64,000 nucleotides of DNA from Rufibacter roseus (GTDB lineage: Bacteria > Bacteroidota > Bacteroidia > Cytophagales > Hymenobacteraceae): NCBI RefSeq assembly GCF_001647285.1, contig NZ_LRML01000002.1, forward strand, positions 186,001 through 250,000, read 5' to 3'. Shown piece by piece: positions 9,547 to 63,944 of this stretch. The notes under the pieces are model-generated. The model did no database searches. It saw nothing but the letters and a program-made list of their open reading frames with translations, and was not told the DNA's origin. A program made the translations under genes and the position numbers. Position 1 is the stretch's first letter, and the number at the start of each line of letters is the position of its first letter.

Positions 9547-9582
9547 GTTTTTAACCTACTTTTATAAAAAGAAGCCTAAAAC
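9547..9582. repeat. 36-bp palindromic element, copy 1
   Basis: The left arm begins gtttttaacct and the right arm ends gcctaaaac. It lies 22 bp after the polymerase-like gene and is the leftmost copy of the family in the window, at the end of the AT-rich cluster. Confidence 0.75.
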
Positions 9583-9645
9583 AGCATATTAGTTCCTATA
9601 CAGCTTTCGCTTTCATTCCTCCTCTATTCTAAAACCAGTTTTTGC

Positions 9646-9653
9646 TATCTTCG
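9646..9653 (+). promoter_or_regulatory. Possible -7 promoter box of hisS-hutH
   Basis: TATCTTCG differs from the Bacteroidetes -7 consensus TAnnTTTG at one base and lies 17 bp before the hisS ATG. No clear -33 TTTG is present at the right spacing, so this is weak. Confidence 0.35.
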
Positions 9654-9670
9654 CGGGATTTCTTTTTCCT

Positions 9671-11053
9671 ATGAGCAAAGACAAACCATCTATTCCCAAG
9701 GGCACCCGAGATTTTGGGCCGGCCACTGTGGTGAAACGTAATCATATATTTTCGGTCATCCGCCGTACGTTTGAGAAGTTCGGATTCCTGCCGCTGGAAA
9801 CCCCGGCCATGGAAAACCTTTCGGTCTTGACCGGAAAGTACGGCGATGAGGGCGACCAGCTGATTTTCAAAATCCTGAATTCAGGTGATTACTTGGGTAA
9901 AGTAAAGCCTGAAGACCTGGAGAAAGGATATAAAGCCCTTACCCCCAGAATCTCAGAGAAAGCGCTGCGCTACGATTTAACGGTGCCTTTTGCCCGTTAC
10001 GTGGTCATGAACCGCAATGACATTTCTTTCCCCTTCAAGCGGTACCAGATTCAGCCGGTGTGGCGGGCCGACCGTCCGCAGCGGGGCCGGTACCGGGAGT
10101 TCTACCAGTGTGATGCCGATGTGGTAGGCACCAACTCTCTGCTTTGCGAGGCGGAGATTATTCTGATGATGGACGAGGTACTGAGTTCTTTGGGCTTAGA
10201 TGACTTCACCATCAAATTCAACCACCGCGGGCTGTTGGCTGGTATTGCGGAGGCCATTGGTGCTAACGGACGCGAGGCTGATTTATGTGTGGCCATTGAC
10301 AAACTGGACAAGATTGGGCAGGAAGCTGTGAATGAGGAACTTCGGCAGAAAGCTTTTTCTGAGGAATCTATCACCAAACTAGCTCCCATCTTTGGCTTAA
10401 CCGGTGAAATACAAGATCTGCTTCCGCAGTTAGATACCTTACTGGCTGATTCAGAGGAAGGCAAAAGAGGTTTGAAAGACATACGCCAGATGCTGGCGTT
10501 TTTAAGCTCTTTTTCTGTAAACAAGGCAAAACTGCAACTCGACGTGACGCTTGCCCGTGGCCTCTCCTACTACACAGGCTGCATCTTCGAGGTGAAGGTA
10601 AATAATGTGCAGATGGGCAGCATCAGTGGTGGCGGCAGGTACGACAACCTCACCGGCATGTTCGGTCTGCCAGGTGTTTCAGGAGTAGGATTCTCTTTTG
10701 GTGTAGACCGTATTTTTGACGTACTGGAAGAGCTGAAACTGTTTCCGGAAGACAGCCAGACTATCACCCAAGTGCTTATTGCCAATTTTGACGAGGCCTC
10801 TATGCAATATGCGCTGCCGGTGCTGCAGACACTCCGGAAAGCGGGCGTTGCCACTGAATTGTTTCCAGAATCGGCTAAGCTAAAAAAACAGATGGCCTAC
10901 GCCGACCAGAAGAATATTCCGTATGTGCTGTTGATTGGCTCTGAGGAAATGGAGAGCGGCTTGTTGAACCTGCGCAACATGCGCACCGGCCTGCAGGAAC
11001 GACTCACATTGGACAACATCCAGAAAGTTTTACAAAACAACCTGAACCTATAA
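9671..11053 (+). CDS. hisS: Histidine--tRNA ligase
   Basis: A 460-residue class II aminoacyl-tRNA synthetase charging tRNA-His. Visible features: N-terminal IPKGTRDFGP, motif 2 RPQRGRYREFYQCDAD (about residues 134-149), the histidine-specific LARGLSYYTGCIFEV, GSISGGGRYDNL, and motif 3 GVGFSFGVDRI. A C-terminal anticodon-binding domain follows (ITQVLIANFDE onward). The stop codon shares its last A with the start codon of hutH, so the two genes are coupled. GC content rises sharply here compared with the polysaccharide genes upstream. Confidence 0.98.
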   Translation: MSKDKPSIPKGTRDFGPATVVKRNHIFSVIRRTFEKFGFLPLETPAMENLSVLTGKYGDEGDQLIFKILNSGDYLGKVKPEDLEKGYKALTPRISEKALRYDLTVPFARYVVMNRNDISFPFKRYQIQPVWRADRPQRGRYREFYQCDADVVGTNSLLCEAEIILMMDEVLSSLGLDDFTIKFNHRGLLAGIAEAIGANGREADLCVAIDKLDKIGQEAVNEELRQKAFSEESITKLAPIFGLTGEIQDLLPQLDTLLADSEEGKRGLKDIRQMLAFLSSFSVNKAKLQLDVTLARGLSYYTGCIFEVKVNNVQMGSISGGGRYDNLTGMFGLPGVSGVGFSFGVDRIFDVLEELKLFPEDSQTITQVLIANFDEASMQYALPVLQTLRKAGVATELFPESAKLKKQMAYADQKNIPYVLLIGSEEMESGLLNLRNMRTGLQERLTLDNIQKVLQNNLNL

Positions 11054-12558
11054 TGCCTGAGCAGCACCTGATTACATCTGCCCCCCTGTCGCTGGCTAAA
11101 ATTGGTCAGGTGCTTCGTGGCAAAGAAACTTTAACACTTTCTGAGGAAGCCGAACAGCAGATTGAGCAATGCTTCAACTATCTGCACGCGCACCTTAAAA
11201 GCTCCACAGTACCTGTTTATGGCATAAACACGGGGTTCGGAGCACTTTGCAATACCTCCATCTCCACCGAGAACCTGGAAACCTTGCAACGTAATCTGGT
11301 GGTTTCTCATGCCTGCGGCACTGGCGACGAAGTACCGGCAGAGATTGTGAAACTGATGCTGTTCCTGAAAGTACAGTCCCTGGCTTACGGGCACAGTGGG
11401 GTACAGGTGGCTACGGCGCAACGGCTATTGGCCTTCTATAACCGCGACATTTATCCGGTGGTGTACCAGTTGGGCTCTTTGGGTGCCAGTGGCGATTTGG
11501 CGCCACTCGCTCATCTGTGCCTACCACTTTTAGGCGAAGGCGAAGTTCAATTCCAAGATTTCAAACTGAAAGGACAAGACGTACTGGATATTTTCTCCTG
11601 GCAGCCTATCAAATTACAAGCCAAGGAAGGATTGGCCCTGCTGAACGGTACGCAATTTATGACGGCCTACGGAGTTCTTACCTGCCTCAAAGCTCGCCAG
11701 ATTGCCGCCGCCGCCGATGTGATTGCTGCTCTGTCGCTAGAGGCTTTTGACGGATTGGCCTCCCCTTTCTCCCCGTTGGTCCATCAGGTTAGGCCACACG
11801 CAGGGCAACGAACTTCGGCCGACAGAATTTTGCAGTTACTTCAGGGCAGCGAATTACAGGCTAAACCCAAGGCTCAGGTGCAGGATCCATATTCTTTCCG
11901 TTGCGTGCCGCAGGTACACGGGGCCAGTTTAGATGCCCTGGCCTACGCTGAACAGGTATTCACCACAGAAGTAAATTCGGTCACCGACAACCCAAACATT
12001 TTCCCGGAAGAGGATGTGATTATCTCAGGCGGCAATTTCCATGGGCAGCCGCTGGCGCTGGCGCTGGATTTCCTGAGTATAGCGTTGGCAGAGTGGGGCA
12101 GCATTTCGGAGCGGAGGACGTTTCAGCTGGTGTCGGGGCAGCGGTGTTTGCCACAGTTCCTGATTCAGGAGCCGGGGCTTAACTCGGGGTTCATGATTCC
12201 GCAATACACGGCCGCCTCCATCGTTAGTCAAAATAAGCAGCTTTGCACACCAGCCAGCGTTGACTCCATTGTTTCCTCTAACGGGCAGGAAGATCACGTA
12301 AGTATGGGCGCTAATGCCGCCACCAAGGCTTGGCAAGTAGTACAGAATGTGGAACGGATTTTGGCCATTGAGCTAATGACCGCTGTACAGGCTCTGGAGT
12401 TTCGCCGTCCGCTGCGTACCTCAGAGCCTCTAGAGATATTGGTGGCGGCTTTTCGGAAACAAGTGGCACCGTTGGAGCAGGACCGCGTGCTGCAACCAGA
12501 CATAGACAAGAGCCTCACCTTTATAAGACAATTTCCTTTTGAAGAGTTGATGACGTGA
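11053..12558 (+). CDS. hutH: Histidine ammonia-lyase
   Basis: A 501-residue cytoplasmic enzyme deaminating L-histidine to urocanate, the first step of histidine use. The Ala-Ser-Gly triad that cyclises to the MIO electrophile is at about residues 145-147 in GSLGASGDLAPLAH. Other family blocks are YGINTGFGAL near residue 55, LLNGTQFMTAYG, and QDPYSFRCVPQVHGA with NSVTDNPNIF. No hutU, hutI or hutG lies nearby, and the partner gene is hisS, so this may be a stand-alone copy. The ATG at 11053 overlaps the hisS stop and the 3' end overlaps the next gene's GTG. Confidence 0.97.
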   Translation: MPEQHLITSAPLSLAKIGQVLRGKETLTLSEEAEQQIEQCFNYLHAHLKSSTVPVYGINTGFGALCNTSISTENLETLQRNLVVSHACGTGDEVPAEIVKLMLFLKVQSLAYGHSGVQVATAQRLLAFYNRDIYPVVYQLGSLGASGDLAPLAHLCLPLLGEGEVQFQDFKLKGQDVLDIFSWQPIKLQAKEGLALLNGTQFMTAYGVLTCLKARQIAAAADVIAALSLEAFDGLASPFSPLVHQVRPHAGQRTSADRILQLLQGSELQAKPKAQVQDPYSFRCVPQVHGASLDALAYAEQVFTTEVNSVTDNPNIFPEEDVIISGGNFHGQPLALALDFLSIALAEWGSISERRTFQLVSGQRCLPQFLIQEPGLNSGFMIPQYTAASIVSQNKQLCTPASVDSIVSSNGQEDHVSMGANAATKAWQVVQNVERILAIELMTAVQALEFRRPLRTSEPLEILVAAFRKQVAPLEQDRVLQPDIDKSLTFIRQFPFEELMT

Positions 12559-14204
12559 GAAAAGGGATAACATTTCTGTTCGTTTGGCTAATTGCCTGTT
12601 TTGGAGCCTGGGCGCAATCGCCGTGCTTTCTGGCGTACAATGAACAGAACGTACCCGTGCAAACCTTCTGCGTAGGTGAGCGCATCACCTTCAAAGACAA
12701 TTCCGGCCAAAGCAACGTAGTAGAGTTCTATGACTTTGACGACCGCAACGGCTTAGACTTTTCCAGTTCAGCCACTTCGCACACTTTTACCACCCCTGGC
12801 ACATTTGTAATTACACAATTGGCCAATGGCTTTAACCAGTGCCAAAGAACCTTTCAGGTAAAGGCGCAGCGGCCTGATTCTCCGCCTGTGCTACAGTCGC
12901 TTTCCGTCACCACCAGTGGTCTACAGCTCAAGATTCAGTCCTCTGCCATCAATGATTTGGTATTGGAAAGAGCCGCCTCGCCCACAGGTACCTTCACCGC
13001 CGTGGAAACCTTTTCTGCCGTTCCTTCAGGCCAAAGCGACCGCACCGTAACCGTAGCTCAAACCGGCGGCTGTTTTCGGCTGCGCGTCACCAACGTGTGC
13101 ACCGGTGAAGAAAACATTGTCTCTAACACCGTTTGCGTTCAGTCGATTTCCGTTACCGCAGGCGACCGGCAAAACCAACTCTTTTGGACCGCTAACACCA
13201 GCCCTGCCGCTTTAAGCAATTATCAAATAATAAGAGGCGGTCAACCGTACCAGACACTCCCTCCCAACCAAAATTCCTTCACCGATGCTCAAGTGGCGTG
13301 CGGACGGCAGTACACGTATTCTTTAGCAGCAGTTTTCACAGACGGCGCCCAAAGCACTTCGGCACCGGTGCAGGTAGAGACACAGGGCACCACGCCCCCG
13401 TCGGCCCCTATTCTTCTTGTGAGCTTCAACTTGCAGAACCAAATCGTTCTAGAGACTATAGTGCCGGAGCAGGAGACTTTTAAAGAACAAGCCCTGTTCC
13501 GCAGCCTAAACGGAGGTGCTTTTGACCTGATTTCTGAAAAACAGCCGCAAAACGCATTAGATACCACTCTTCCCGACCTCAGTCAGCGTCCCTGCTACCA
13601 AACCGCCTACACCGATTCCTGCAGCCTTGTATCTCCCCGCAGCAACACCGCCTGCCCTGCCCTTTTAGCGGCAACCTATAGAACAGAAAACGGTGCTGTT
13701 GCCTTGACCTGGAGCCCCTATGAAGGTTTTCCTAACGGAATTGAGAGCCAGACGCTGGAGTTGCTGGATGAGCAAGGAAACGTTTACTGGAGCACCACTG
13801 TCAGTGGACAAAGCTATGTACACCAGCAGTTACCACAAACGTACCAGCGACTCTCTTACCGTTTGCTCAGTAGTTCAGAAGCAGGCAATCTGCAGAGCGC
13901 CTCCAACACCGCCACCATTGACCAACCATTCCAGTTCTTCTTCCCCACCGCCTTCAGCCCCAACGGCGACGGGTTGAACGATGTGTTCAGAGCCGTAGGC
14001 CCTCCTTTCGCCTCTACTTTCAAGTTGCAGGTACTCAACCGCTGGGGGCAAATCATATTCGAATCAAACAGCCCCCAAAGCGGCTGGGATGGCACCTACA
14101 ACAGTAAACCCGCCCCACCAGAAACGTATCTCTATCGTTTTGAAGCCACTGATGTGAACGGACAGCGCATCACCAAAAGCGGCAAAATTACGCTGGTGCG
14201 GTAA
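12555..14204 (+). CDS. Secreted protein with type B T9SS sorting domain
   Basis: 549 residues. It begins with a signal peptide (hydrophobic residues 5-18, AWAQS cleavage site). A PKD-like region (VEFYDFDDRNG, then FTTPGTFVITQ) and fibronectin III-like repeats follow, with several Cys pairs. The C-terminal 85 residues match the gliding-motility type B sorting domain: FFPTAFSPNGDGLNDVF, then VLNRWGQIIFES and GWDGTYN, ending ITKSGKITLVR. It is therefore probably exported by Sec and then the type IX system to the cell surface. The start is GTG (12555), overlapping the hutH stop by 4 bp; this is the only start that keeps the signal peptide. The ligand is unknown. Confidence 0.9.
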   Translation: MRKGITFLFVWLIACFGAWAQSPCFLAYNEQNVPVQTFCVGERITFKDNSGQSNVVEFYDFDDRNGLDFSSSATSHTFTTPGTFVITQLANGFNQCQRTFQVKAQRPDSPPVLQSLSVTTSGLQLKIQSSAINDLVLERAASPTGTFTAVETFSAVPSGQSDRTVTVAQTGGCFRLRVTNVCTGEENIVSNTVCVQSISVTAGDRQNQLFWTANTSPAALSNYQIIRGGQPYQTLPPNQNSFTDAQVACGRQYTYSLAAVFTDGAQSTSAPVQVETQGTTPPSAPILLVSFNLQNQIVLETIVPEQETFKEQALFRSLNGGAFDLISEKQPQNALDTTLPDLSQRPCYQTAYTDSCSLVSPRSNTACPALLAATYRTENGAVALTWSPYEGFPNGIESQTLELLDEQGNVYWSTTVSGQSYVHQQLPQTYQRLSYRLLSSSEAGNLQSASNTATIDQPFQFFFPTAFSPNGDGLNDVFRAVGPPFASTFKLQVLNRWGQIIFESNSPQSGWDGTYNSKPAPPETYLYRFEATDVNGQRITKSGKITLVR

Positions 14205-14333
14205 GAGCTTACGCGCTTAAAAAGAAACCTATATGTAGAGCTCTCATTCCAGATACTTCCCCCTGAAGGGTAGGGTCGTTGATTTTTAAAAGAATTAATC
14301 TGGTTCAAGTTTCTAACCTGGACCTACAACAGG

Positions 14334-14399
14334 CTGAAGTTTGAAACTTCAGTGAGGCGAGAGCCTCAAAATCTGCAGTAATAGCAGTGGTTTACCACT
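14334..14399. repeat. Four consecutive short hairpins, possible structured RNA or repeat
   Basis: Hairpin 1 at 14334-14352 has 9-bp arms with one loop base. Hairpin 2 at 14353-14368 has 6-bp arms closing a GAGA (GNRA-type) loop. Hairpin 3 at 14373-14387 has 4-bp arms. Hairpin 4 at 14386-14399 has 5-bp arms. Such density in 66 bp outside any gene is unlikely by chance, but whether it is an RNA or a repeat is unknown. Confidence 0.5.
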
Positions 14400-14489
14400 T
14401 TGACCAAAAAATTCAGGTAGAACTTAACGGCCATACCTTTTAAAGGGTGCTAAGGGGAGATGTATAAACGGGAGTATCCCTACATTAAC

Positions 14490-14524
14490 GTTTTCAGCTT
14501 TTTTTTAAAAAACAGACTGAAAAC
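14490..14524. repeat. 36-bp palindromic element, copy 2
   Basis: Arms gttttcagct and agactgaaaac with a T/A-rich centre. It lies about 40 bp upstream of the ybaB promoter. Confidence 0.75.
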
Positions 14525-14565
14525 ACAAATCTTCAAAAATCCTTTGTCCATAATTTCAGACACTC

Positions 14566-14598
14566 TTTGACACCATTCCCGCAAATCCCTTACTTTTG
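14566..14598 (+). promoter_or_regulatory. Bacteroidetes-type promoter of ybaB
   Basis: TTTG at 14566-14569, a 21-bp spacer, then TACTTTTG at 14591-14598, matching the -33/-7 consensus TTTG-N19-21-TAnnTTTG. The predicted start is near 14605, giving an 80-nt leader that ends with the Shine-Dalgarno-like AAAGGAG at 14674-14680. Confidence 0.7.
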
Positions 14599-14686
14599 GC
14601 ACCGGAACAGGAAATCAGGCGAAGAAGCATCTGAAGCGCCGGTTTCCACGTTACTGTTGTACAACTAAACCAGAAAGGAGAAGCTT

Positions 14687-15022
14687 ATGTTTGATATGAT
14701 GGGCATGATGAACAAGGTAAAGGAGATGCAGGCCAAGATGAAGGAAGCCCAGGAAAAGCTGAAACACATTACGGTCACCTCTGAAGCCGGGGGCGGCATG
14801 GTCAAAGCCACAGCCAACGGTGAGCGCCGTCTGCTAAAGATTGAGTTTGATGAAACGCTCATGAACCCCAATGACAAAGAAATGTTGGCCGACCTGGTAG
14901 TGGCTGCCGTGAACAAAGCCATGGACGAAGCCGGTGAGCGCGGCCGCGAGGAAATGAAGAAAAACACGGAAGGCATGCTCCCTAACATCCCCGGACTAGA
15001 CCTGAGCAACTTTGGACTCTAA
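14687..15022 (+). CDS. ybaB: YbaB/EbfC family nucleoid-associated protein
   Basis: 111 residues, the usual size for this DNA-binding dimer family. The N-terminal helix is Met- and Lys-rich (MMGMMNKVKEMQAKMKEAQEKL), followed by the beta region GMVKATANGERRLLKIEFDE and the C-terminal helix with LVVAAVNKAMDEAGERGREEM. It binds DNA without strong sequence specificity. An unusually clear ribosome-binding site (AAAGGAG, 6 bp spacing) supports the ATG at 14687. In many bacteria ybaB neighbours recR/dnaX; here it is followed by a GT2 gene that starts inside its last codons. Confidence 0.95.
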   Translation: MFDMMGMMNKVKEMQAKMKEAQEKLKHITVTSEAGGGMVKATANGERRLLKIEFDETLMNPNDKEMLADLVVAAVNKAMDEAGERGREEMKKNTEGMLPNIPGLDLSNFGL

Positions 15023-16247: not shown

Positions 16248-16380
16248 GTGCTTGAAAAGTTAGGAAGCCTAAGTTAACTAATTTTAAACTTATCTTGCGT
16301 ACTGGTACACCCAAAAGAACTATTTTAGTTTGGTGGGCGGTATAGCAACCTGTCTATACGAAGATCTCTAAAAAATAGAT

Positions 16381-18185: not shown

Positions 18186-18221
18186 GTTTTAGGCTTCTTT
18201 TCCAAAAAATAGGCTTAAAAC
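18186..18221. repeat. 36-bp palindromic element, copy 3
   Basis: gttttaggct / aggcttaaaac arms, with complementary flanking bases extending the stem. It starts 9 bp after the stop of the TPR lipoprotein. Confidence 0.85.
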
Positions 18222-19379: not shown

Positions 19380-19425
19380 CTGGCGTTTTGTGCCTCATTT
19401 TAGAAAAGTAGCTCTAAAAGGGTTT

Positions 19426-19848: not shown

Positions 19849-19882
19849 GTTTTAGAGCTTATTTCTGAAAAGGAGGCAAAAC
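19849..19882. repeat. Palindromic element, copy 4 (34 bp)
   Basis: gttttagagctt / ggaggcaaaac arms. It lies 10 bp after the lipoprotein stop and 25 bp before the end of the converging methyltransferase, where it could terminate both. Confidence 0.75.
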
Positions 19883-19906
19883 AGTAACTAGTATAACTGT
19901 TTTTTT

Positions 19907-23975: not shown

Positions 23976-24015
23976 AAAACCACTGGCACAGGAATGTAAA
24001 CATGCCAGTGGTTTT
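23976..24015 (+). terminator. Rho-independent terminator after the first response regulator
   Basis: A 13-bp perfect stem (23976-23988 with 24003-24015) with a 14-nt loop and a T-rich 3' side. Confidence 0.75.
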
Positions 24016-24046
24016 TAGTTTACTTTTTGAAAAAAAGGTCAAAAAA
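24011..24046. repeat. 36-bp palindromic element, copy 5 (degenerate)
   Basis: It starts at the 3' arm of the terminator: gtttttagttt on the left and an A-rich right arm with ggtcaaaaaa. The match is weaker than other copies. Confidence 0.5.
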
Positions 24047-26950: not shown

Positions 26951-26987
26951 CATTTTAGGCCTGATTTTTTTAAAAACAGGCCGAAAC
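26951..26987. repeat. Palindromic element, copy 6
   Basis: attttaggcctg / caggccgaaac arms around a T/A centre. It lies 23 bp after the hybrid kinase and 19 bp before the DinB-like gene. Confidence 0.85.
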
Positions 26988-28094: not shown

Positions 28095-28130
28095 GTTTTC
28101 GGCTTAATTTCCAGAAAATAGGCCAAAAAC
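28095..28130. repeat. 36-bp palindromic element, copy 7
   Basis: gttttcggctta / taggccaaaaac arms. It lies 23 bp after guaD and directly abuts the terminator hairpin. Confidence 0.8.
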
Positions 28131-29821: not shown

Positions 29822-29857
29822 GTTTTAAGCCTTGTTTTTCAAAAACAGCAGTAAAAC
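29822..29857. repeat. 36-bp palindromic element, copy 8
   Basis: gttttaagcct / cagcagtaaaac arms. It lies 38 bp upstream of the GT4 gene, in the ffh-GT4 divergent gap. Confidence 0.8.
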
Positions 29858-31220: not shown

Positions 31221-31256
31221 GTTTTGGGGCTGGTTTTGGTAAAACAGCTCCAAAAC
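31221..31256. repeat. 36-bp palindromic element, copy 9
   Basis: gttttggggctgg / cagctccaaaac arms. It starts 7 bp after the GT4 stop codon. Confidence 0.85.
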
Positions 31257-32759: not shown

Positions 32760-32795
32760 GTTTTTCACCTGTTTTTCAAAAAACAGCTCCAAAAG
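32760..32795. repeat. 36-bp palindromic element, copy 10
   Basis: gtttttcacctg / cagctccaaaag arms, with the left arm degenerate. It lies 14 bp before the flippase start. Confidence 0.65.
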
Positions 32796-35783: not shown

Positions 35784-36851
35784 TTATTTTCTTAAGGTAT
35801 GCAGTAATTGCAATAGCGCCTGCTCTCTTTTAATTGCAGGAAAATGTGTGGCAATTCTTTCTCTACACTTTAGACCATCAATAGCCTTAGCATCTGCAAT
35901 AGCTTTTTTTAGCAACTGCGCCAACAGCGTTGGGTCTTTTTTCGGCAGCACATATCCTGAGTCTCCCACTATGTCTGGCATACCGGCTACATGGCTTACA
36001 ATTGGCACACAACCACAAAGCATGCTTTCGCTTAGTGCATTGGGAAAACCTTCAGATAGAGAAAGCTGCAGGTAAAAGAAATGTGCACTGTATACCGCCC
36101 GCAAATCAGCTAAAGGCATCAATGGTAGCAAAGTAAGATTTTCTGGTTGATCAGGAAATCTATATCCCTCTGGCGCCCCCACAATAGTGAAAACTGCGTC
36201 AGGCAATTGTCTGGCCGCTTCTAAAATAAGATCTATGCCTTTTAATTTTTGCGTGAAGCGCATGTGCAATCCAGCACACACCGTCAAAAATGACTTTGGC
36301 TTACGAGTTACACCAGAAGCTGGAAGCCAGGCAGTAGGGTTATAGCCATTGTAAACGACCGTATGCGGGGTCTTTAAGCCTGGGCAGTGGTAGCGAAATC
36401 CTTGGTAAGGATAATCATTTGGTTGATAAGTGTATTCCTGCCACACAAGCTTTTCATGCACGGGCGCTATGTGAGCCGCCAAGTGGTAAGACCATTTTGT
36501 GAAGGTGCCTAATACAGGTTTAGAGAAACAGCCGTAGTTAATGCTAGGGAAAGAAACACAGTCTGTACCACCGGCCATTATTAAAGTCGGTTTTTGGCCT
36601 GTTTTCCCAAAAAGAGCCGGAAAAAAGGAATGGTAGCCAGCAAACATGCAAACTAAAATGTCAGCTTCCCAAATATGACGGAGCAAGAAGAGTAGCTGCC
36701 CGAACCATGTAAAAGGAGTCTTCCATTTTTTTGATGGGAGAAAACCCATGTGCCGCACCTCATACTGCTGCTCCATCAGCTGCAAGTCTTTCACTACAAA
36801 AGAAGAAAGTCCCGGATAGAAATATAACAGTACAGGTTTACGCTCTGACAT
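35784..36851 (-). CDS. Glycosyltransferase family 4
   Basis: 355 residues. The N-terminal domain has YHSFFPALFG and LIMAGGTDCV. The C-terminal donor domain has FLTVCAGLHMRFTQKLKGIDLILEAA, FTIVGAPEGYRFP and LSEGFPNALSESMLCGCVPIVS with the E-x7-E motif. Part of the N-terminal domain (codons covering 36590-36625, peptide FFPALFGKTGQK) is encoded by DNA that fits the palindromic repeat family. It is the last gene of a minus-strand run starting with the DegT aminotransferase. Confidence 0.88.
   Translation of the reverse strand: MSERKPVLLYFYPGLSSFVVKDLQLMEQQYEVRHMGFLPSKKWKTPFTWFGQLLFLLRHIWEADILVCMFAGYHSFFPALFGKTGQKPTLIMAGGTDCVSFPSINYGCFSKPVLGTFTKWSYHLAAHIAPVHEKLVWQEYTYQPNDYPYQGFRYHCPGLKTPHTVVYNGYNPTAWLPASGVTRKPKSFLTVCAGLHMRFTQKLKGIDLILEAARQLPDAVFTIVGAPEGYRFPDQPENLTLLPLMPLADLRAVYSAHFFYLQLSLSEGFPNALSESMLCGCVPIVSHVAGMPDIVGDSGYVLPKKDPTLLAQLLKKAIADAKAIDGLKCRERIATHFPAIKREQALLQLLHTLRK
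36590..36625. repeat. 36-bp palindromic element, copy 11, inside a coding sequence
   Basis: gtttttggcctg / gagccggaaaaa arms, within the glycosyltransferase gene and in frame with it. The coding strand reads peptide FPALFGKTGQK, similar to FWAVFKKTAQK encoded by the copy inside menF, because both are read in the same frame of the element. Confidence 0.7.
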
Positions 36852-38759: not shown

Positions 38760-38795
38760 GTTTTAAGCCTGTTTTTAGAAAAACAGCTCAAAAAG
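38760..38795. repeat. 36-bp palindromic element, copy 12
   Basis: gttttaagcctg / cagctcaaaaag arms. It sits between the aminotransferase and the dehydrogenase genes, in the transcribed gap of the operon. Confidence 0.85.
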
Positions 38796-41016: not shown

Positions 41017-41042
41017 TTCATTAACAGAGAAATGAATGTAAT

Positions 41043-41073
41043 GCAAGAGCCTCACCTTTGGTGAGGCTCTTGC
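41043..41073 (+). terminator. Terminator after the LEA-like lipoprotein
   Basis: A perfect 14-bp stem (41043-41056 with 41060-41073) with a TTT loop. It is followed at once by a palindromic element starting gtttta. Confidence 0.85.
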
Positions 41074-41074
41074 T

Positions 41075-41110
41075 GTTTTAGGCCTGTTTTATAAAAAGTA
41101 GCCCTATAAC
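41075..41110. repeat. 36-bp palindromic element, copy 13
   Basis: gttttaggcctg / tagccctataac arms. It ends exactly one base before the stop codon of the minus-strand GT2 gene (41111) and begins 2 bp after the terminator of the plus-strand gene. Confidence 0.85.
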
Positions 41111-43855: not shown

Positions 43856-43891
43856 GTTTTAGTGCCATTTTTAAAAAAACAGGCTTAAAGC
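43856..43891. repeat. 36-bp palindromic element, copy 14
   Basis: gttttagtgcc / aggcttaaagc arms. It lies downstream of the SRP RNA gene on its own strand. Confidence 0.75.
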
Positions 43892-43957
43892 AGGCACTTA
43901 AAGAACTTGACTGGCTTGAGCAAAAAGGCAGAAGCCGTTGAGGTATGGGCAAAAAAA

Positions 43958-44054
43958 AGCGGCAAACCGAGTATCGCGCCGCTCAACCACCTACCCTTGC
44001 TCCCTTCCGGGCCTGGGGGAGTTCAGCAGGAGCTGGCCGTACCGATTTGCCGCT
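43958..44054 (-). ncRNA. ffs: Small bacterial SRP RNA (4.5S type)
   Basis: About 97 nt on the minus strand. The invariant domain IV hairpin is present: CAGGCCCGGAAGGGAGCAAGG, with the GGAA tetraloop and the asymmetric AGCA internal loop recognised by Ffh. The ends pair: agcggcaaatcg with cggtttgccgct, one G-U. A run of T follows the 3' end (43951-43958). A perfect -7 box lies just upstream (44056-44063). It scaffolds Ffh in co-translational targeting; ffh is at 28207-29544. The short length has no Alu domain. Confidence 0.93.
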
Positions 44055-44055
44055 G

Positions 44056-44086
44056 CAAAGATACGAAGCCTTTTATTCAGTACAAG
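44056..44086 (-). promoter_or_regulatory. Promoter of SRP RNA
   Basis: Minus strand CTTG, 19-bp spacer, TATCTTTG (44056-44063), a full match to TAnnTTTG, with the predicted start a few bases downstream at the RNA 5' end. Confidence 0.6.
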
Positions 44087-44088: not shown

Positions 44089-44123
44089 GTTTTTGGCTTA
44101 TTTTTCTAAAAACAAACTTAAAC
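44089..44123. repeat. Palindromic element, copy 15 (35 bp)
   Basis: gtttttggctt / aaacttaaac arms. It lies upstream of the SRP RNA promoter, so the RNA gene is bracketed by two copies. Confidence 0.6.
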
Positions 44124-44249
44124 CAGCCGTTCAGATGATTAATTACCTGATCATCAGCAATCCTTTATTTTAGGTTTTTTAACTTTAGAAATTGCTTTTC
44201 GGCAACCTCCCCTTTTAAAGCACCTGTTTTGCCACAAAGCATAGAAGCC

Positions 44250-44285
44250 GTTTAGTGGCTGATTTTTGTAAACCAACCTCTAAAC
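44250..44285. repeat. 36-bp palindromic element, copy 16
   Basis: gtttagtggctg / aacctctaaac. The outer stem is extended to 11 bp by flanking bases (aagccgtttag with ctaaacggctt, 44247-44289). It follows the stop of the minus-strand lipoprotein by about 25 bp and could terminate it. Confidence 0.65.
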
Positions 44286-46731: not shown

Positions 46732-46767
46732 GTTTTAGACCTATTTTTCAAAAAACGATGAGAAAAC
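46732..46767. repeat. 36-bp palindromic element, copy 17, spanning a start codon
   Basis: gttttagaccta / gatgagaaaac arms. It starts 2 bp after the guaA stop and contains the ATG (46758) and next codons of the downstream gene. Confidence 0.75.
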
Positions 46768-49846: not shown

Positions 49847-49887
49847 ACAGAAAGGCGCTGGAGAAATTCAGCGCTTTTCTGTTTTTG
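49847..49887 (+). terminator. Terminator after hemL
   Basis: A 14-bp stem with one G-T pair (49847-49860 with 49869-49882), followed by a T run. The 3' arm runs into a palindromic element. Confidence 0.75.
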
Positions 49888-49916
49888 ACCTGTTTTCAGA
49901 AAATCATGTCGAAAAC
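49881..49916. repeat. 36-bp palindromic element, copy 18
   Basis: gtttttgacctg / catgtcgaaaac arms. It overlaps the last bases of the hemL terminator. Confidence 0.75.
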
Positions 49917-51492: not shown

Positions 51493-51528
51493 TTTTTTGT
51501 GCTCCTTTTCCAAAAACTGAGGTAAAAC
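51493..51528. repeat. 36-bp palindromic element, copy 19
   Basis: ttttttgtgctc / gaggtaaaac. The left arm is degenerate. It lies between the cellulase gene and dcd. Confidence 0.6.
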
Positions 51529-53343: not shown

Positions 53344-53379
53344 GTTTCAGGCATACTTTTAGAAAAACAGGCTAAAAAC
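53344..53379. repeat. 36-bp palindromic element, copy 20
   Basis: gtttcaggcata / aggctaaaaac arms. It lies between dnaN and gldC, 16 bp beyond the dnaN terminator. Confidence 0.75.
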
Positions 53380-54685: not shown

Positions 54686-54721
54686 GTTTTAGAGCTGAAT
54701 TTTCTAAAACAGGCCTAAAAC
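54686..54721. repeat. 36-bp palindromic element, copy 21
   Basis: gttttagagctg / caggcctaaaac. The right arm is a perfect consensus. It lies next to the terminator of the lipoprotein at 54813. Confidence 0.9.
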
Positions 54722-55553: not shown

Positions 55554-55682
55554 AGTAAGCTAACATTTCAAAATTTACAATCCTCTCTTACGGGAATATT
55601 TAAAGGAAAGATTGTGTTTTTTCAAAATATTTTCTTACTTGCAGGTTTTACTTAAAATAAGAATATTAATATATAATACTCT

Positions 55683-57230: not shown

Positions 57231-57338
57231 GGCAGAGGCTGTTGGTGAATGATTCGGAAAAATAGCAATTGGTAACGGTCAAAAAAAGTATGAACCATAA
57301 CACTTAAACCTTATCCTAATACTAAAGCGCTCACTCTT

Positions 57339-57373
57339 GTTTTAAGCCTCTTTTAGAAAAACAGCCTAAAAAC
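57339..57373. repeat. Palindromic element, copy 22 (35 bp)
   Basis: gttttaagcct / cagcctaaaaac arms. It ends one base before the stop codon of menE. Confidence 0.85.
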
Positions 57374-57374
57374 A

Positions 57375-58469: not shown

Positions 58470-58486
58470 GGACGTAGTGTTTTAGC

Positions 58487-58640: not shown

Positions 58641-59465
58641 TCAAGGAAACTTAGGATACTTAGAGAAATCTGGCTTGCGCTTTTCCAGGAAAGCATTCTT
58701 CCCTTCTTTAGCTTCGTCTGACAGGTAGTAGAGCAAGGTAGCGTCACCGGCTAACTGTTGCACTCCGGCTTGACCGTCTAGTTCGGCGTTGAAAGAGGCT
58801 TTTAGCATGCGTAGGGCCAAGGGGCTCTTTTCTAAAATTTTCTGGCACCACTCTACCGTAGTTTCCTCCAACTGCTCCAGCGGCACCACTTTGTTCACCA
58901 AACCCATGTCTAAAGCTTCCTGGGCATTGTATTGGTCACAGAGGTACCAGATTTCGCGGGCTTTCTTTTGGCCAACAATGCGGGCAAGGTATGACGCCCC
59001 GAAACCACCATCAAAAGAACCTACTTTTGGACCAGTCTGGCCGAAGCGGGCGTTTTCAGCAGCAATACTCAAATCGCACACCACGTGAAGCACGTGACCA
59101 CCACCAATGGCCCAACCAGCTACCATGGCTATTACAGGCTTCGGAATCCGGCGAATCTGCATTTGCAGGTCCAGCACGTTCAGGCGCGGAACGGTGTCTT
59201 CGCCAATGTAACCGCCGTGGCCGCGTACACTTTGGTCACCGCCTGAACAGAAAGCTTTTCCGCCTTCGCCTGTGAAAATAATAACGCCAATGTCTGAATT
59301 ATCGCGGCAGATGTTCATGGCATCAATCATTTCAGACACGGTAAGTGGCGTAAACGCATTGTGCACCTGCGGACGGTTAATGCTGATCTTGGCTATGCCG
59401 TTGTAGAACTGAAAAAGTATCTCCTTATATTCTTTTAGAGTACTCCAGTTGTATTTGCTTTCCAT
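58641..59465 (-). CDS. menB: 1,4-Dihydroxy-2-naphthoyl-CoA synthase
   Basis: 274 residues from the ATG at 59465. A longer frame runs upstream to 59636 but passes a -7 box (59560-59567), so the downstream start is preferred. Crotonase fold: [55 protein letters not shown], and [22 protein letters not shown]. It closes the second ring of DHNA-CoA from OSB-CoA in menaquinone synthesis, with the conserved GGDQ oxyanion region. It follows menE in transcriptional order from menI. Confidence 0.95.
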
Positions 59466-59559
59466 AGTGGGTAAATTAGGTAAAACGTATTCTTCAGTAT
59501 CTGAAGAACTGGCAGAAGTCTGAATTGTAAACGTAAAGCCCTGCCTCAAAGATTTGCTG

Positions 59560-59567
59560 CAAAGGTA
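59560..59567 (-). promoter_or_regulatory. -7 promoter box of menB
   Basis: TACCTTTG on the minus strand, about 95 bp before the ATG at 59465. It argues that menB is also transcribed separately from menD. Confidence 0.45.
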
Positions 59568-59603
59568 TTCAGGCTTGGTTAAAATTAAAATTCCGAAACC
59601 TTT

Positions 59604-59790
59604 ATGGCGCAAGCGTCCGCTGGTGTCCGTGAGCAATCATGATAAATTACTTGGTGCTTTCGCTTTTAACTCTGCCGTTGTTGCGTGCTTTCACCAACAA
59701 CCAAAACTGCAGCGGGTAGCACAAGTGCACGCACAAGGGATTGCACCTACATCTGGAATATACGCGGACACATGCGGACGCTTGCGCCAT
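59604..59790. mobile_element. MITE-like element with 27-bp terminal inverted repeats
   Basis: The left repeat 59604-59630 and right repeat 59764-59790 are inverted copies matching at 24 of 27 positions (atggcgcaagcgtccgc and its inverse). The 133-bp interior carries no transposase. No clear target-site duplication is seen. An ORF reading through both ends (59554-59811) looks spurious. Confidence 0.55.
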
Positions 59791-59821
59791 GATATACCAA
59801 CTGAAGCTTAAGGCCTCACCT

Positions 59822-59857
59822 GTTTTAGGCCTACTTTCACAAAAACTGGCCTAAAAC
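59822..59857. repeat. 36-bp palindromic element, copy 23
   Basis: gttttaggccta / tggcctaaaac arms. It starts 5 bp beyond the menD stop codon. Confidence 0.9.
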
Positions 59858-59862
59858 AGCAT

Positions 59863-61572
59863 CTACAGTTTTATTTCCTGCACTGCTTTCCGGTACTGGT
59901 CAAAGATGGCGTAATTCTCCGGGCTACTAGTTTCAACCTCTAACAACTGCGGACCGGCAGATACGTCAAAGAAAGTATTTAAAGCTTCAGCCAAACCTGC
60001 TGCATCAGTTACTTTCAAATAGTTCAAGCCCATGTCCTCTGCTGTTTTCTGCGCCGTCTGACGCTGCTCCGTTTCGAAGAAGGGCCTAAGTTCCGGCTGG
60101 TTTCTGGGGCCTTCAATCATTCTGAAGATGCCGCCGCCGTGGTTGTTCAATACCACAACGCGGAAGTTCTGGGGCAGGTAATTGTGCCAGAGCGCGTTTC
60201 GGTCGTACAGAAATGCCATGTCACCGGTGAGCAGAGTCACCAGATTATCAGTGCTGAGAGCGGCACCAACGGCTGTGCTGGTGCTGCCGTCAATACCGCT
60301 GGTGCCACGGTTAGCGAATACCTCCACGTTTTCTTTATCGGCTACGCCGATGAGGTTGGCATAGCGCACACTCATGCTGTTGGCCAGGTGCAGGAGGCTG
60401 TTGTCCGGCAAATTACGGAGCACTGTATGACAAGCTTGAAACTCTGAAAATGGGCTGTTTTTCTGAAATTGCTCTAAAATTGACTTCCCCTTAAAATTCA
60501 AAGAATGCCAACTCTGCGTAAATGCTGGTTTCACCTGAGGACTTGTTTCTCCTTGATTAAGCTTCAAAAAGAAATCTTTGGGCTCAGTTCTGATGATGCG
60601 GGTAAGGAACTGAAAAGTGTCGGCCACGAACCCAGCGGGCTGCACGTGCCAGTGCTGGAGCCCCTGCTGCTTTCGAAGGAACAGTTTCATGTTTTTTGAT
60701 ATCAATGACTGATGAAACGTGATGAGCAAATCTGGTTGAAGAGCAGCCTCTGCGTGCAGATGTTTGGCACCTAAAAAAACATCATGGTAATTGATTGTCT
60801 CGCCCTCTATCTGCAGGTTACTGATAACATCGGTCACAAACACTGCCCCCGAAGCACGGCAAAACAATTGCACTGCTTCATAAGTGTTCGGGCACTTCTG
60901 CCCCTGACCTGCTACCACTAAGATTCTAGAGAATTTTGATAATTCCGCCCTAAGATTCTGCCATGCTTCTTCTGGCAATCCGTAGGCAGAAGGCATTTCT
61001 TCAATGACTCTTACCTTATCGTTAAACTTTATTTCCTCGTCGGGCTCTGGGTAAAAAGGCTCCCGCAGCGGGATGTTCAGGTGGACTGGTCCCTGCGGAA
61101 AAGCAAGCGCCTCGTTCAATGCTTCGTTCACCAAGCGGTTGGCGTGCCACTGGGCATCCGGGTGTGTCGTATCTACCGGAAAATCTAGGCTGCTTTTGAC
61201 GTGCTTCCCGTAAATGTGGCTCTGCCGAATGGTTTGTCCGTCAAGCTGGTCAATCCACTCGGGCGGGCGGTCAGCAGTTAGTACCAGCAGCGGAATGTTC
61301 TGGTAAAAAGCCTCGGCCACAGCGGGGGCATAATTATAGGCGGCGGTGCCGGAAGTACACACCAACACCACTGGCCGTCTTGTTTGCTGAGCTAGGCCCA
61401 ACCCAATAAAGGCCGCGCTCCGTTCATCGGGCACGGTGCGCACCCTCAGTTTCGGGTGCCGCGCAAACGCAATGGTTAAGGGCGCGCAGCGGGAGCCCGG
61501 TGAAAGCACCACATCTTGCACGCCTTTGCGGGCGCAGATTTCCACCAAGTCAACTATAGGTTGTAAAATCAT
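59863..61572 (-). CDS. menD: 2-Succinyl-5-enolpyruvyl-6-hydroxy-3-cyclohexene-1-carboxylate synthase
   Basis: 569 residues, thiamine diphosphate-dependent. The N-terminal half has VLSPGSRCAPLTIAFARHPKLRVRTVPDERSAAFIG and TSGTAAYNYAPAVAEAFYQNIPLL with LDGQTIRQSHIYGKHVKSS. The C-terminal half carries the ThDP/metal site: VFANRGTSGIDGSTSTAVGAAL, LTGDMAFLYDRNALW and NNHGGGIF. It joins isochorismate and 2-oxoglutarate. It overlaps menF by 4 bp (ATGA-type), so the two are coupled. Confidence 0.97.
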   Translation of the reverse strand: MILQPIVDLVEICARKGVQDVVLSPGSRCAPLTIAFARHPKLRVRTVPDERSAAFIGLGLAQQTRRPVVLVCTSGTAAYNYAPAVAEAFYQNIPLLVLTADRPPEWIDQLDGQTIRQSHIYGKHVKSSLDFPVDTTHPDAQWHANRLVNEALNEALAFPQGPVHLNIPLREPFYPEPDEEIKFNDKVRVIEEMPSAYGLPEEAWQNLRAELSKFSRILVVAGQGQKCPNTYEAVQLFCRASGAVFVTDVISNLQIEGETINYHDVFLGAKHLHAEAALQPDLLITFHQSLISKNMKLFLRKQQGLQHWHVQPAGFVADTFQFLTRIIRTEPKDFFLKLNQGETSPQVKPAFTQSWHSLNFKGKSILEQFQKNSPFSEFQACHTVLRNLPDNSLLHLANSMSVRYANLIGVADKENVEVFANRGTSGIDGSTSTAVGAALSTDNLVTLLTGDMAFLYDRNALWHNYLPQNFRVVVLNNHGGGIFRMIEGPRNQPELRPFFETEQRQTAQKTAEDMGLNYLKVTDAAGLAEALNTFFDVSAGPQLLEVETSSPENYAIFDQYRKAVQEIKL

Positions 61573-62792
61573 GATTCAGACGCTTGAAACAGCCGCAGCA
61601 CGGTCTGCATTTTCAGTTCAGTTTCCTGCCACTCTCTGGCGGGTATGGAATCAGCGGTCATACCAGCACCGGCATAGGCCGTAACGGTGTCTTTGCCTAA
61701 CTCTACGCAACGCAAATTTACATACAGACTTGTCTCCTGCCCCAGCTGCACCGGCCCTAAATAGCCACTGTAATAGCGGCGGTCGTGCGGTTCCAGCTCC
61801 TTTATCATTTTTAACGCTGATGCTTTAGGCATTCCTCCCACCGCTGAAGTTGGGTGTAACAACTCCAACATTTGGGTACCTAAGTGAGGAAACCCTACTT
61901 CTTCCATGGCAGCGCTATAATCTGTTTTAAGGTGCAGCAGGTTTCCGGCAGCTACAGTTCTCGGGCCTACTTCAACGTAGTCACGTAGCCTGATGTGCTT
62001 AAAACAGCTGATGATGTAACGCTGCACCAGCGCCTGCTCCTCTATTTCTTTCTGCCGCCAAATGGCATCGGCAGAAGTCAAGCCCTCCGTCAGAGGTTGT
62101 GTACCAGCCAATGCCACCGTTCTGAATACTTTGTGCTTGTCTATCTGCACCAGCAGCTCAGGGGTAGCTCCCAACCAAGTTCCCAACCCAGGCACCGCCA
62201 CCAAAGAAACAAAGGCAGTGGGGTACAGTTGCGTTAGTTGGGTAAAAGTGTTCAGCAGGTTAAAGCCTTCATAAAGAGGCAACGTCTTCGTACGGGACAG
62301 CACCACTTTCTCTAGGCAACCCGCCTGCATGGCCTCCACAGCGTTGGCTACACTTTTTTCAAAAGCATCGCGGGCAAGAAATTTAGCTGTTCCGTCAGGG
62401 TGGGTTGGCCAAGTCAGGTCTGATGGCTGTTTTTGGGCTGTTTTTTTAAAAACTGCCCAAAAACGCTCAGGCAGCTCCTGCTCTCCGGTTTCTAAACTTT
62501 CTTTTATTTTGCTGCAGAAATACAAAACGGCAGGCAAAAACACTTTTGGCGCAGCCTCAGAAAGCTGGAACGGACAAAAAGCAAAACCTTTCTGGCCGCC
62601 TTCTAACTGCGGCAACTCATTTTGGCGCTCACCCGAAACCAGAACCTGTATGTCTTGAGAATTAGGTAATCGCCAAAGCGCCGCTGGTAACTCAGCCTGT
62701 AAAGCAGCAGTGAATAAATGGTAAGCAATTTCTTCTGGAGAGGCATCAACTGAAGAAATCAGATTTTGAATGTGTGAGGTTGTATGGGGCAT
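61569..62792 (-). CDS. menF: Isochorismate synthase (MenF/EntC type)
   Basis: 407 residues of the chorismate-binding family. Core motifs: VVLSRTKTLPLYEGF, WLGATPELLVQ, FRTVALAGTQP, EEQALVQRYIISCF, LHPTSAVGGMPKASAL, YYSGYLGPVQLG and GAGMTADSIPAREWQETELK. It converts chorismate to isochorismate, committing it to menaquinone (or a siderophore); adjacency to menD favours menaquinone. Residues about 110-122 (FWAVFKKTAQK) are encoded by an in-frame copy of the 36-bp palindromic element. The stop overlaps the menD start by 4 bp. Confidence 0.93.
   Translation of the reverse strand: MPHTTSHIQNLISSVDASPEEIAYHLFTAALQAELPAALWRLPNSQDIQVLVSGERQNELPQLEGGQKGFAFCPFQLSEAAPKVFLPAVLYFCSKIKESLETGEQELPERFWAVFKKTAQKQPSDLTWPTHPDGTAKFLARDAFEKSVANAVEAMQAGCLEKVVLSRTKTLPLYEGFNLLNTFTQLTQLYPTAFVSLVAVPGLGTWLGATPELLVQIDKHKVFRTVALAGTQPLTEGLTSADAIWRQKEIEEQALVQRYIISCFKHIRLRDYVEVGPRTVAAGNLLHLKTDYSAAMEEVGFPHLGTQMLELLHPTSAVGGMPKASALKMIKELEPHDRRYYSGYLGPVQLGQETSLYVNLRCVELGKDTVTAYAGAGMTADSIPAREWQETELKMQTVLRLFQASES
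62429..62464. repeat. 36-bp palindromic element, copy 24, inside menF
   Basis: gtttttgggctg / ctgcccaaaaac arms inside the menF coding sequence, length 36 = 12 codons, so no frameshift. It encodes FWAVFKKTAQK. Confidence 0.8.
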
Positions 62793-62799
62793 GAAATAA

Positions 62800-63219
62800 T
62801 TATCTGTCCAAAACGGCCATGGTGATGCGGCTTATGCAAACTAAATCACCGGCCTCTGAGGTAATACGGATTTCCCAGACCTGGGTGCGGCGGCCCACAT
62901 GAAGCGCAGTAGCTTTTCCATACACATACCCGCTGCGCACGCTCTTAATGTGGTTAGCGTTAATCTCCAGCCCCACGCAATACTGCTTACCCAAGTCTAA
63001 GAACATGGTGGCACCAACACTTCCTAAAGTTTCAGCTAGCGCTACAGATGCCCCCCCATGCAAAAGACCCATGGGCTGGTGCGTGCGGTGGTCTACCGGC
63101 ATACGCCCCACAAGGTAATCATCGCCAATTTCGGTATACTCTATACCAATGTGTTCGCCCATTGTATTTTTGTTCCAGCTATTTAGCTGCTCCAACGAGA
63201 CATCCGCGCGTCTTTTCAT
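62800..63219 (-). CDS. menI: 1,4-Dihydroxy-2-naphthoyl-CoA hydrolase-like thioesterase (MenI/YdiI type)
   Basis: 139 residues, a hotdog thioesterase closely resembling E. coli YdiI over its full length: LEQLNSWNKNTMGEHIGIEY, GRMPVDHRTHQPMGLLHGGASVALAETLGSVGA (with HGG and catalytic Glu in AETLGS), ALHVGRRTQVWEIRI. It releases DHNA from DHNA-CoA. It starts the minus-strand men run, 7 bp before menF. Broad-specificity acyl-CoA hydrolysis is the alternative. Confidence 0.85.
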   Translation of the reverse strand: MKRRADVSLEQLNSWNKNTMGEHIGIEYTEIGDDYLVGRMPVDHRTHQPMGLLHGGASVALAETLGSVGATMFLDLGKQYCVGLEINANHIKSVRSGYVYGKATALHVGRRTQVWEIRITSEAGDLVCISRITMAVLDR

Positions 63220-63273
63220 CCGTAGTATTCGTATTTATGCCCTACCTTTAGGGTCTGCAAATTAGCGTAAAAA

Positions 63274-63888
63274 TTGAGCCTCAAAAAAATATACCTCATC
63301 CGCCACGGCCAAACTGACCTTAACCTACAGGGTATAGTGCAGGGAAGCGGCGTAGACAGTTCCCTCAATGATACCGGCCGCTGGCAGGCAGATAAATTCT
63401 TCGACGCCTACCAACATGTTCCTTTTGACAAAATCTATACGTCGGCGCTGCAGCGCAGTGTGCAGAGCGTGCAAAAGTTCATTGATTTAGGCATACCCCA
63501 TGAGCGGCACGCCGGGCTAAACGAGATAAGCTGGGGCCACCGTGAGGGCACCAGAATAACCCCAGAGGAAGATGCCTATTATTATGAGATGCTGGAGCGC
63601 TGGAACCAGGGAGAGACGGATGTGCCCATTGAGGGCGGTGAAAGCCCCCAGCAAGTAGCTGACCGCCAAAAACCGGTGCTGGACCTGATACTCTCCCGCC
63701 CCGAGGAAGAAACTATACTGGTTTGCATGCACGGCCGAGCCATGCGGGTACTGCTGGCTCAAATTCTGAACTACCCCCTGCACCAGATGGACCGCTTTGT
63801 GCACCAGAACCTTTGCCTGTATCTTCTGAACCATACTGGTTCTATGTATTGGGTTGAACGCTTTGCCGATGTATCACATTTGGCCTGA
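63274..63888 (+). CDS. Histidine phosphatase family protein
   Basis: 204 residues with TTG start (63274). The catalytic RHG motif is at residues 8-10 (YLIRHGQTDLN), then YTSALQRSVQSVQ, GLNEISWGHREGTR and the second catalytic His in VCMHGRAMRVLLAQ. It belongs to the phosphoglycerate-mutase-like branch; substrate unknown (alpha-ribazole phosphatase or broad phosphatase are alternatives). A weak -7-like TACCTTTA lies at 63243. Confidence 0.88.
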   Translation: MSLKKIYLIRHGQTDLNLQGIVQGSGVDSSLNDTGRWQADKFFDAYQHVPFDKIYTSALQRSVQSVQKFIDLGIPHERHAGLNEISWGHREGTRITPEEDAYYYEMLERWNQGETDVPIEGGESPQQVADRQKPVLDLILSRPEEETILVCMHGRAMRVLLAQILNYPLHQMDRFVHQNLCLYLLNHTGSMYWVERFADVSHLA

Positions 63889-63908
63889 AAATGAAAGTGA
63901 ACTTTACT

Positions 63909-63944
63909 GTTTTAGACCTGTTTTTTTGAAAATAGCTCAAAAAC
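63909..63944. repeat. 36-bp palindromic element, copy 25
   Basis: gttttagacctg / tagctcaaaaac arms. It starts 21 bp after the phosphatase stop and is the rightmost copy. Confidence 0.85.

Follow-up and report, generated by a model that had tools for sequence, protein, structure and literature searches.

Palindromic DNA elements of Rufibacter are largely kept in place and differ in sequence between species

The subject of this analysis is a family of short palindromic elements found in a 64,000-nucleotide stretch of the Rufibacter roseus genome (RefSeq assembly GCF_001647285.1, contig NZ_LRML01000002.1, positions 186,001 to 250,000 of the forward strand), which is referred to below as the window. 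The elements are 36–46 bp long and lie mostly between genes. The repeat is real and occurs above chance; among the genomes searched it is confined to the Rufibacter genus group. The family is largely inherited in place. At shared positions the arms have different sequences in different species, and in several lineages the copies have decayed in place. The evidence favours a DNA-binding factor over mobile DNA and RNA hairpins. We put at a little under one half (roughly 45%) the probability that the elements are the sites of a putative symmetric, lineage-specific DNA-binding protein that changes along with its sites.

Form and distribution of the family

The genome holding the window (5.12 Mb in 39 contigs) is labelled G000, and other G labels denote the genomes compared with it. 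The skeleton of the element is GTTTT N8 TTT N4 AAA N8 AAAAC. A preliminary description of the window had listed 25 copies, most of them of 36 bp, with GTTTT/AAAAC ends and inner blocks of T and A. All 25 are present within 1 bp (those given as 14490, 26951 and 57339 are better placed at 14489, 26952 and 57338), and the length, ends and inner blocks are right; in G012 the palindrome, and its conservation, reach about 46 bp through the flank TTTCC. The favoured bases outside the skeleton are CT in the R. roseus genome, CC in G006 and G012, and C in G013.

A 40-column weight matrix, for which two further contigs of G000 served as the training set, finds 28 places in the window that exceed 10.3, the maximum reached by 864 kb of reversed sequence. 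Three of these are additions to the first list, namely 10498 and 13518, both within genes, and 19385. A scan of the genome against a control, which the preliminary description had proposed, bears the family out. In 864 kb of the genome 307 places score at least 10, compared with one in reversed sequence, and 306 places (training contigs included) exceed the best reversed-sequence score. The extrapolated number is about 1,800 copies per genome, the DNA underlying this estimate being mostly the training DNA as well. The spaced pattern GTTTT N7 TTTT N4 AAAA N7 AAAAC, with at most one mismatch, occurs at 1004 places in the whole genome and at none in the reversed control. Most counts given here omit copies with more than 2–3 mismatches to the skeleton, so that decayed copies are under-counted and the skeleton positions look over-conserved. 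Genes were called with a simple codon-score caller, and their start codons are uncertain.

The two halves of the element go together. Strong half-sites inside and outside palindromes number 190 and 0 in G006, 249 and 0 in G012, 233 and 0 in G013, and 451 and 6 in G000, where the reversed control gives 5; about a tenth or so of true solo half-sites may be masked as weak palindromes. All 286 of the G000 copies compared differ from one another, and identical copies occur in G012, in groups of 12 and 13. The centre (positions 18–19) is CA or TG in 137/166 copies of G012 and 106/153 of G013, the self-complementary CG and TA being avoided. Such a centre recalls the crossover dinucleotides of serine recombinase sites.

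All 16 genomes examined from the genus carry the family, and 21 genomes from other genera of the same family of bacteria do not. With at most one mismatch, the number of matches to the spaced pattern per genome ranges from 31 to 1407 among the 15 other genus genomes, is 0–3 in the 21 genomes of other genera (none in 19 of them), and is 0–15 in 22 genomes from other families of the order. The exact pattern, searched in 395 genomes of the phylum, occurs at 374 places in G000 and at one place each in seven others. A genus-level protein query returned 11 loci from named genomes, nine of Rufibacter, one of Sabulibacter and one of Hymenobacter. No title among those found on palindromes or repeats of Pontibacter, Rufibacter or Hymenobacter, or on repetitive extragenic palindromes (REPs) of Bacteroidetes, concerns this palindrome family.

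A look-alike in G037, the order-level genome with 15 pattern matches (14 of them fetched), was set aside, being one stretch of a longer repeat, most copies of which share homologous flanks. This dispersed repeat (L127–L140, position 2001 in each) is more than 100 bp long, judged by the flanks common to most copies, and includes a stretch like the Rufibacter element. The scan of viral contigs gave three contigs, two of which have an AT-rich, chance-like match. The third, L157, is filed as viral and carries a consensus-like, perfect-looking element at 1275–1310, directly after a terminator hairpin.

Conservation in place and change in sequence

Copies tend to occupy the same places in different species. 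In the part of the window from 38 to 58 kb, the region between convergent genes at 41017–41110 is occupied in all 13 genus relatives that could be compared (at most 4 mismatches), and several other regions are without one in all or nearly all relatives. The short gap after the GMP synthase gene is occupied in 14 of 15 genus relatives at the same threshold, G006 being the one without. Comparison of orthologous regions gives agreement in occupancy for 24 of 25 between G000 and G012, and for 21 of 22 between G000 and G013; G006 had no comparable regions in this pairwise comparison. When the species with well-kept copies are pooled, 105 of 269 orthologous-region pairs have an element in both members, 139 in neither, and 25 are discordant. 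For all species pairs in the compared blocks, decayed species included, the numbers are 366, 453 and 186. These pooled counts have regions and ancestry in common and are not independent observations. The closest pair of genomes compared has 86% nucleotide identity. Five syntenic stretches of other genera hold no more than two weak matches each, much like reversed controls.

The conservation extends to the distance from neighbouring genes. At one shared stop codon, the element begins 3 bp past the stop in G000, G012, G005, G013 and G009 and 6 bp past it in G006 (six of nine genomes); the three without an element, G008, G004 and G015, all belong to the decayed clade described below. Over 76 pairs of orthologous copies, the distance from the left gene differs by 0–3 bp in 40, and 13 match from the right gene only, although copies were paired only if they lay within 12 bp of the same place as measured from either gene, so that the closeness is partly selected.

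One copy is kept within a gene. The element at 62429 occupies codons 110–122 of a gene for a chorismate-binding enzyme (Pfam PF00425), and is kept in all 15 genus genomes scored, that of R. roseus included. At the best offset tried, it has no mismatch to the skeleton in four of these genomes, one mismatch in one, two in eight and three in two. The corresponding codons in four genomes from other families of the order hold no element (5–9 mismatches); the search set left out G015 and other genera of the family. An element kept inside coding sequence argues against a general function of the family in efficient transcription termination.

The sequences found at shared places tend to differ by species. 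At the stop codon just described, positions 6–12 read AGACCTA in G000, CGGGCTC in G012, TGGGCTG in G013, AAGGCTA in G009, GGGGCTC (following CTTTA) in G005 and AGGGCTG in G006. The spellings in G012, G013 and G005 are those of the respective species consensus, and the copies of G000 are more varied. Across their copies, G013 has T at position 6 in 96%; G012 has C at 6 in 61%, C at 12 in 90% and A at 13 in 73%; G000 has A or T at 6 and G at 12; and in one stretch of G005 most copies have A at 5. Over the 20 variable positions, orthologous copies have a mean identity of 0.514 (76 pairs), compared with 0.458 for random pairs from different species and 0.571 for random pairs within a species. The orthologous value lies between the other two, which indicates that the copies change in place and in concert.

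Decay was followed on a tree made from eight concatenated proteins, three of them missing in some genomes, in which several nodes are weakly supported. The early branches have clean copies, G009 and G010 are intermediate in copy quality, and a crown clade (G002, G011, G015, G008, G004, G014 and G003) has mostly copies with 2–3 mismatches. The copies are clean in seven species, G000, G001, G005, G006, G007, G012 and G013. In the stretch examined, three recognisable palindromes remain in G008 compared with 10 in G012 and 14 in G013. Low counts alone do not imply decay. In G012 the dialect departs from the pattern, which leaves only 31 matches, although none of the other three genomes sampled has copies as uniform as these.

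Location of the elements and termination of transcription

There are 120 copies with at most two mismatches in 464 kb of G000. The flanking genes are tandem for 77 of these, convergent for 26 and divergent for 11; five copies are in called genes and one is at an edge. Over four genomes (G000, G006, G012 and G013), an element is present in 142 of 199 convergent intergenic regions of at least 40 bp, compared with 83 of 209 divergent ones (p=1e-10). Only 37 of 726 copies fall outside intergenic regions of at least 40 bp, although 79–84% of the DNA is called coding. Elements in tandem regions lie closer to the upstream stop codon (mean relative position 0.28–0.35).

These locations would suit protein-assisted two-way terminators or roadblocks at gene ends, in which RNA polymerase would be halted over the outer T-tract by the protein bound to the element. 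Such a function would fit two further observations. Where the element is at least 70 bp from a gene, a strong hairpin is found within 70 bp on 75 of 289 3' sides but on only 34 of 494 5' sides, and convergent regions contain an element less often when they have an ordinary terminator (49/83) than when they do not (93/116; p=0.0015). However, tandem regions have no such complementarity (78/148 with a terminator, 318/691 without), and in 49 of 63 tandem cases with an ordinary terminator the latter lies upstream of the element. The frequent occupation of divergent regions and the high-scoring copy kept within a gene also stand against termination. No hairpin followed by a T-tract in the sense strand, as in an intrinsic terminator, is formed by the element, whose GTTTT...AAAAC polarity is the opposite one, the ordinary terminators being separate. 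We regard two-way termination as unlikely. The ordinary terminators beside elements and the hairpin counts fit an element that stands at the boundaries of transcription units without replacing terminators. The earlier suggestion that the palindromes serve as the 3' ends of mRNA is right as to position, but ordinary terminators are frequently adjacent and one copy lies within a gene.

The individual copies in the window illustrate these locations (matrix scores, for which the reversed-control maximum was given above, are in brackets). Several keep their distance from a gene in G013. The elements at 18186–18221 (44.4), 31221–31256 (46.7) and 32760–32795 (40.2) lie 8, 6 and 73 bp past a stop codon, and 7, 5 and 70 bp past the orthologous stop in G013. 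The newly found copy at 19385–19420 (34.2) is 63 bp past the stop, and 68 bp in G013. Those at 38760–38795 (48.0) and 54686–54721 (42.4) are 18 and 98 bp from the adjacent gene, compared with 17 and 100 bp in G013. The element at 29822–29857 (36.6) is between divergent genes, and the orthologous region of G013 also has one. Two lie between convergent genes, at 28095–28130 (47.1), where the element adjoins an ordinary terminator hairpin, and at 41075–41110 (37.7), in the region occupied in all comparable relatives. The copy following the GMP synthase gene (46732–46767; 34.0) overlaps the start of the next gene.

Elements at 43856–43891 (40.4) and 44089–44124 (42.8) flank, on its two sides, a Bacteroidales small signal recognition particle (SRP) RNA gene at 43956–44059 on the minus strand. 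Further copies are at 9547–9582 (42.6), 14489–14524 (24.5), 24011–24046 (31.5), 26952–26987 (27.5), 36590–36625 (40.1), 44250–44285 (26.1), 49881–49916 (46.1), 53344–53379 (43.1), 59822–59857 (47.7) and 63909–63944 (49.7), together with two degraded copies at 19849–19884 (20.9) and 51493–51528 (23.0) and one at 57338–57373 (30.6) that is one base out of register.

Besides the chorismate-binding-enzyme copy (62429–62464; 49.8), two of the copies added here lie within genes, one in a CHU_C-domain gene (13518–13553; 40.6) and a weak one in the histidyl-tRNA-synthetase gene (10498–10533; 25.0). Palindromes within reading frames occur also among the Rickettsia palindromic elements; the Rufibacter family differs from these in having few copies in genes and in its conserved positions between species.

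Five stretches contain 12 gaps of at least 12 kb without an element. All 12 are below their own contig in GC content (some only slightly) and in coding score, as expected of recently acquired DNA. In G012, a 16-kb stretch without an element (C1:118024–133932, L052–L053) has 34% GC compared with 50% for the chromosome, and is likely to be an acquired island.

Alternative origins and a putative binding protein

The sites might instead be spread or homogenised by a biased process, such as repair, conversion or DNA uptake, without selection for binding. This has been proposed for the cyanobacterial HIP1 palindromes, and the DNA uptake sequences (DUS) of Neisseria are a like case; concerted change at fixed positions, together with decay in some lineages, would fit such a drive (PMC4390886, PMC3630211). 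According to PMC3630211, the Neisseriaceae have about a thousand or more DUS per genome, with species dialects, a proposed slow decay after loss of specificity, and inverted pairs at terminators. The Rufibacter elements resemble DUS in these respects. DUS, however, act singly and are common in genes, whereas the Rufibacter halves go together (0, 0, 0 and 6 solo half-sites in the four genomes) and the copies are almost all intergenic. HIP1 is described in PMC4390886 as very abundant, with rapid loss and replacement in some lineages. In these respects it is similar to the Rufibacter elements; it differs in being 8 bp long and tied to methyltransferases, whereas the Rufibacter site is 36–46 bp, and a two-part motif of this size is long for biased repair. 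We regard a drive of this kind as unlikely too.

The preliminary description regarded the elements as a mobile or once-mobile REP-like family. Its comparison with REPs is apt: the elements are alike in size and copy number, in lying between genes and in their bias towards 3' ends. On this account the elements would be miniature mobile elements spread by a Y1/RAYT transposase, and now fixed and degenerate. According to PMC3733652, REPs (with GTAG or CGTC tags, and RAYT) are palindromes of 20–40 bp, high in copy number and mostly extragenic, which prefer convergent and tandem regions; the Rufibacter elements have these properties in common with them, and also resemble them in being restricted to one genus. 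The same paper indicates G.T pairing at stem residues in REPs. Unlike REPs so described, the Rufibacter elements have no clear tag, do not track a transposase, show no sense-strand G.U excess and keep their positions across species. GTAG is found at 16/572, 4/242, 3/332 and 5/306 element ends in G000, G006, G012 and G013, where chance predicts about 11, 5, 6 and 6, and CGTC at 5, 2, 0 and 9, the largest excess being 9 against about 6 in G013.

Genes matching Y1_Tnp (PF01797) were rejected as a source of mobility, their number tracking neither copy number nor element quality. G007 has 798 pattern matches and no Y1 match at E<=0.001, and G012 has six Y1 matches. The one hint of a RAYT link, a check that the preliminary description had proposed, is in G000, where six loci with Y1_Tnp matches hold 10 copies (at most two mismatches) in 19.5 kb. 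This is about twice the average density (120 in 464 kb predicts 5), in small numbers. The identical groups in G012 would also suit spread as mobile elements. Mobility receives little support overall, considering the orthologous positions kept to a few bp, the distinctness of all 286 G000 copies and the foreign look of long element-free stretches. An origin as RAYT-spread elements is improbable, and by the tests run the family is REP-like in shape and outside the RAYT/GTAG REP families.

The preliminary description had also noted that the two arms vary in matched pairs, and had suggested a folded hairpin. Arm pairing was tested by scripts. Over the 286 copies of G000, the observed and expected pairing is 0.51 and 0.29 at mirror pair 6, 0.59 and 0.49 at 7, 0.53 and 0.47 at 8, and 0.52 and 0.41 at 9. 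Matched variation therefore stands for pairs 6–9, but pairs 10–13 and 16–17 have no pairing beyond column composition, and mismatches are common at position 9 (C-C in 44/286 copies, G-G in 35/286). Position 9 behaves as independent columns in G012 (0.54 observed, 0.50 expected) and G013 (0.48, 0.47), and less so in G000. When the right half of one element is replaced by that of another, the predicted fold loses 1.9, 1.7, 1.3 and 0.05 kcal/mol of stability in the four genomes, the smallest value being that of G013.

An RNA function predicts more G.U than A.C mismatches in the sense strand. In tandem regions, read in the sense of transcription, G.U and A.C number 192 and 182 in G000 (p=0.64), 60 and 82 in G006 (p=0.08), 102 and 76 in G012 (p=0.06), and 75 and 59 in G013 (p=0.20). 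The leanings are opposite, and there is no sense-strand excess of G.U in the four genomes pooled (429 against 399, p=0.31). Nor does the centre have an overall strand preference between CA and TG (118 against 100, p=0.25), although G006 taken alone gives 12 against 3 (p=0.035). In the window, the sole Rfam match is the SRP RNA, and no Rfam family matches the elements. There is no sign that the elements are read as RNA, and RNA hairpins acting as stabilisers or processing signals at mRNA 3' ends, for all the palindromic form, modest co-variation, fold-weakening swaps and 3' bias, are very improbable and already largely refuted.

Protein families were considered as candidate readers. HU (PF00216) has one match in 13 of the 16 genus genomes and two in the other three, and 13 genomes from outside the genus have one or two, so that there is no genus-specific HU. 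ParB (PF02195) has one match in each of the 16 and is found also in six of seven other genomes. Large serine recombinases (PF07508) were considered because of the asymmetric central CA/TG. Such genes are found in 13 of the 16 genus genomes (G002, G006 and G015 being without) and in none of seven order-level genomes; three serine recombinase genes that were read look ordinary, and most of 18 loci are without good elements. These loci (L158–L175), from several members of the genus, contain large and small serine recombinase genes, have few good elements or none around them, and are probably mobile islands.

We therefore return to the proposal of a DNA-binding protein. On this reading, a symmetric (dimeric or larger) sequence-specific protein would recognise, along the helix of double-stranded DNA, a site of 36 to about 46 bp whose half-sites go together. 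The putative protein would contact the outer TTTT, the purine-purine-S-pyrimidine core and the inner TTT. An altered preference of the protein would pull the sites along with it, and loss of the protein would let them decay. Most likely it would organise or insulate the chromosome, as a nucleoid-associated or boundary protein, rather than end transcription, because the sites are mostly at transcription-unit boundaries and one is kept in coding sequence.

Several points weigh against a binding protein of this kind. None of the gene families tested (Y1_Tnp, HU, ParB, large serine recombinase) follows the elements. Mirror position 6 co-varies in G000 and G012, exceeding in G000 what independent half-sites would give; with the effect of exchanging right halves, this suggests some link between the halves beyond simple dimer binding. 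Several paralogous readers, or repair between arms, could provide such a link. Compared directly, G012 and G013 have four comparable regions, of which one is occupied in both and three in G013 only. The divergent location is common too, and the spacing is not consistently regular (clustered in two of five stretches, nearly so in one, regular in one and neutral in one). Finally, this account demands much of a binding protein, since a thousand or more sites would have to shift together, an objection raised for HIP1 in PMC4390886.

More tentatively, it is possible that the whole genus uses a fast-changing putative DNA-binding system whose obligate two-part sites number about a thousand or more in each genome; its recognition would have been rewritten in concert several times at fixed positions and abandoned in other lineages, and its role in chromosome architecture would be unlike that of REP, DUS or HIP1. 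If so, it would be a bacterial parallel to co-evolving systems of sites and readers. REP-like repeats are usually regarded as relics of mobile DNA or as hairpins; in this family the position stays and the sequence shifts in step at very many sites. With clean, re-spelled and decayed species within a single genus, Rufibacter would offer a natural experiment in the co-evolution of a reader with its sites across a genome.

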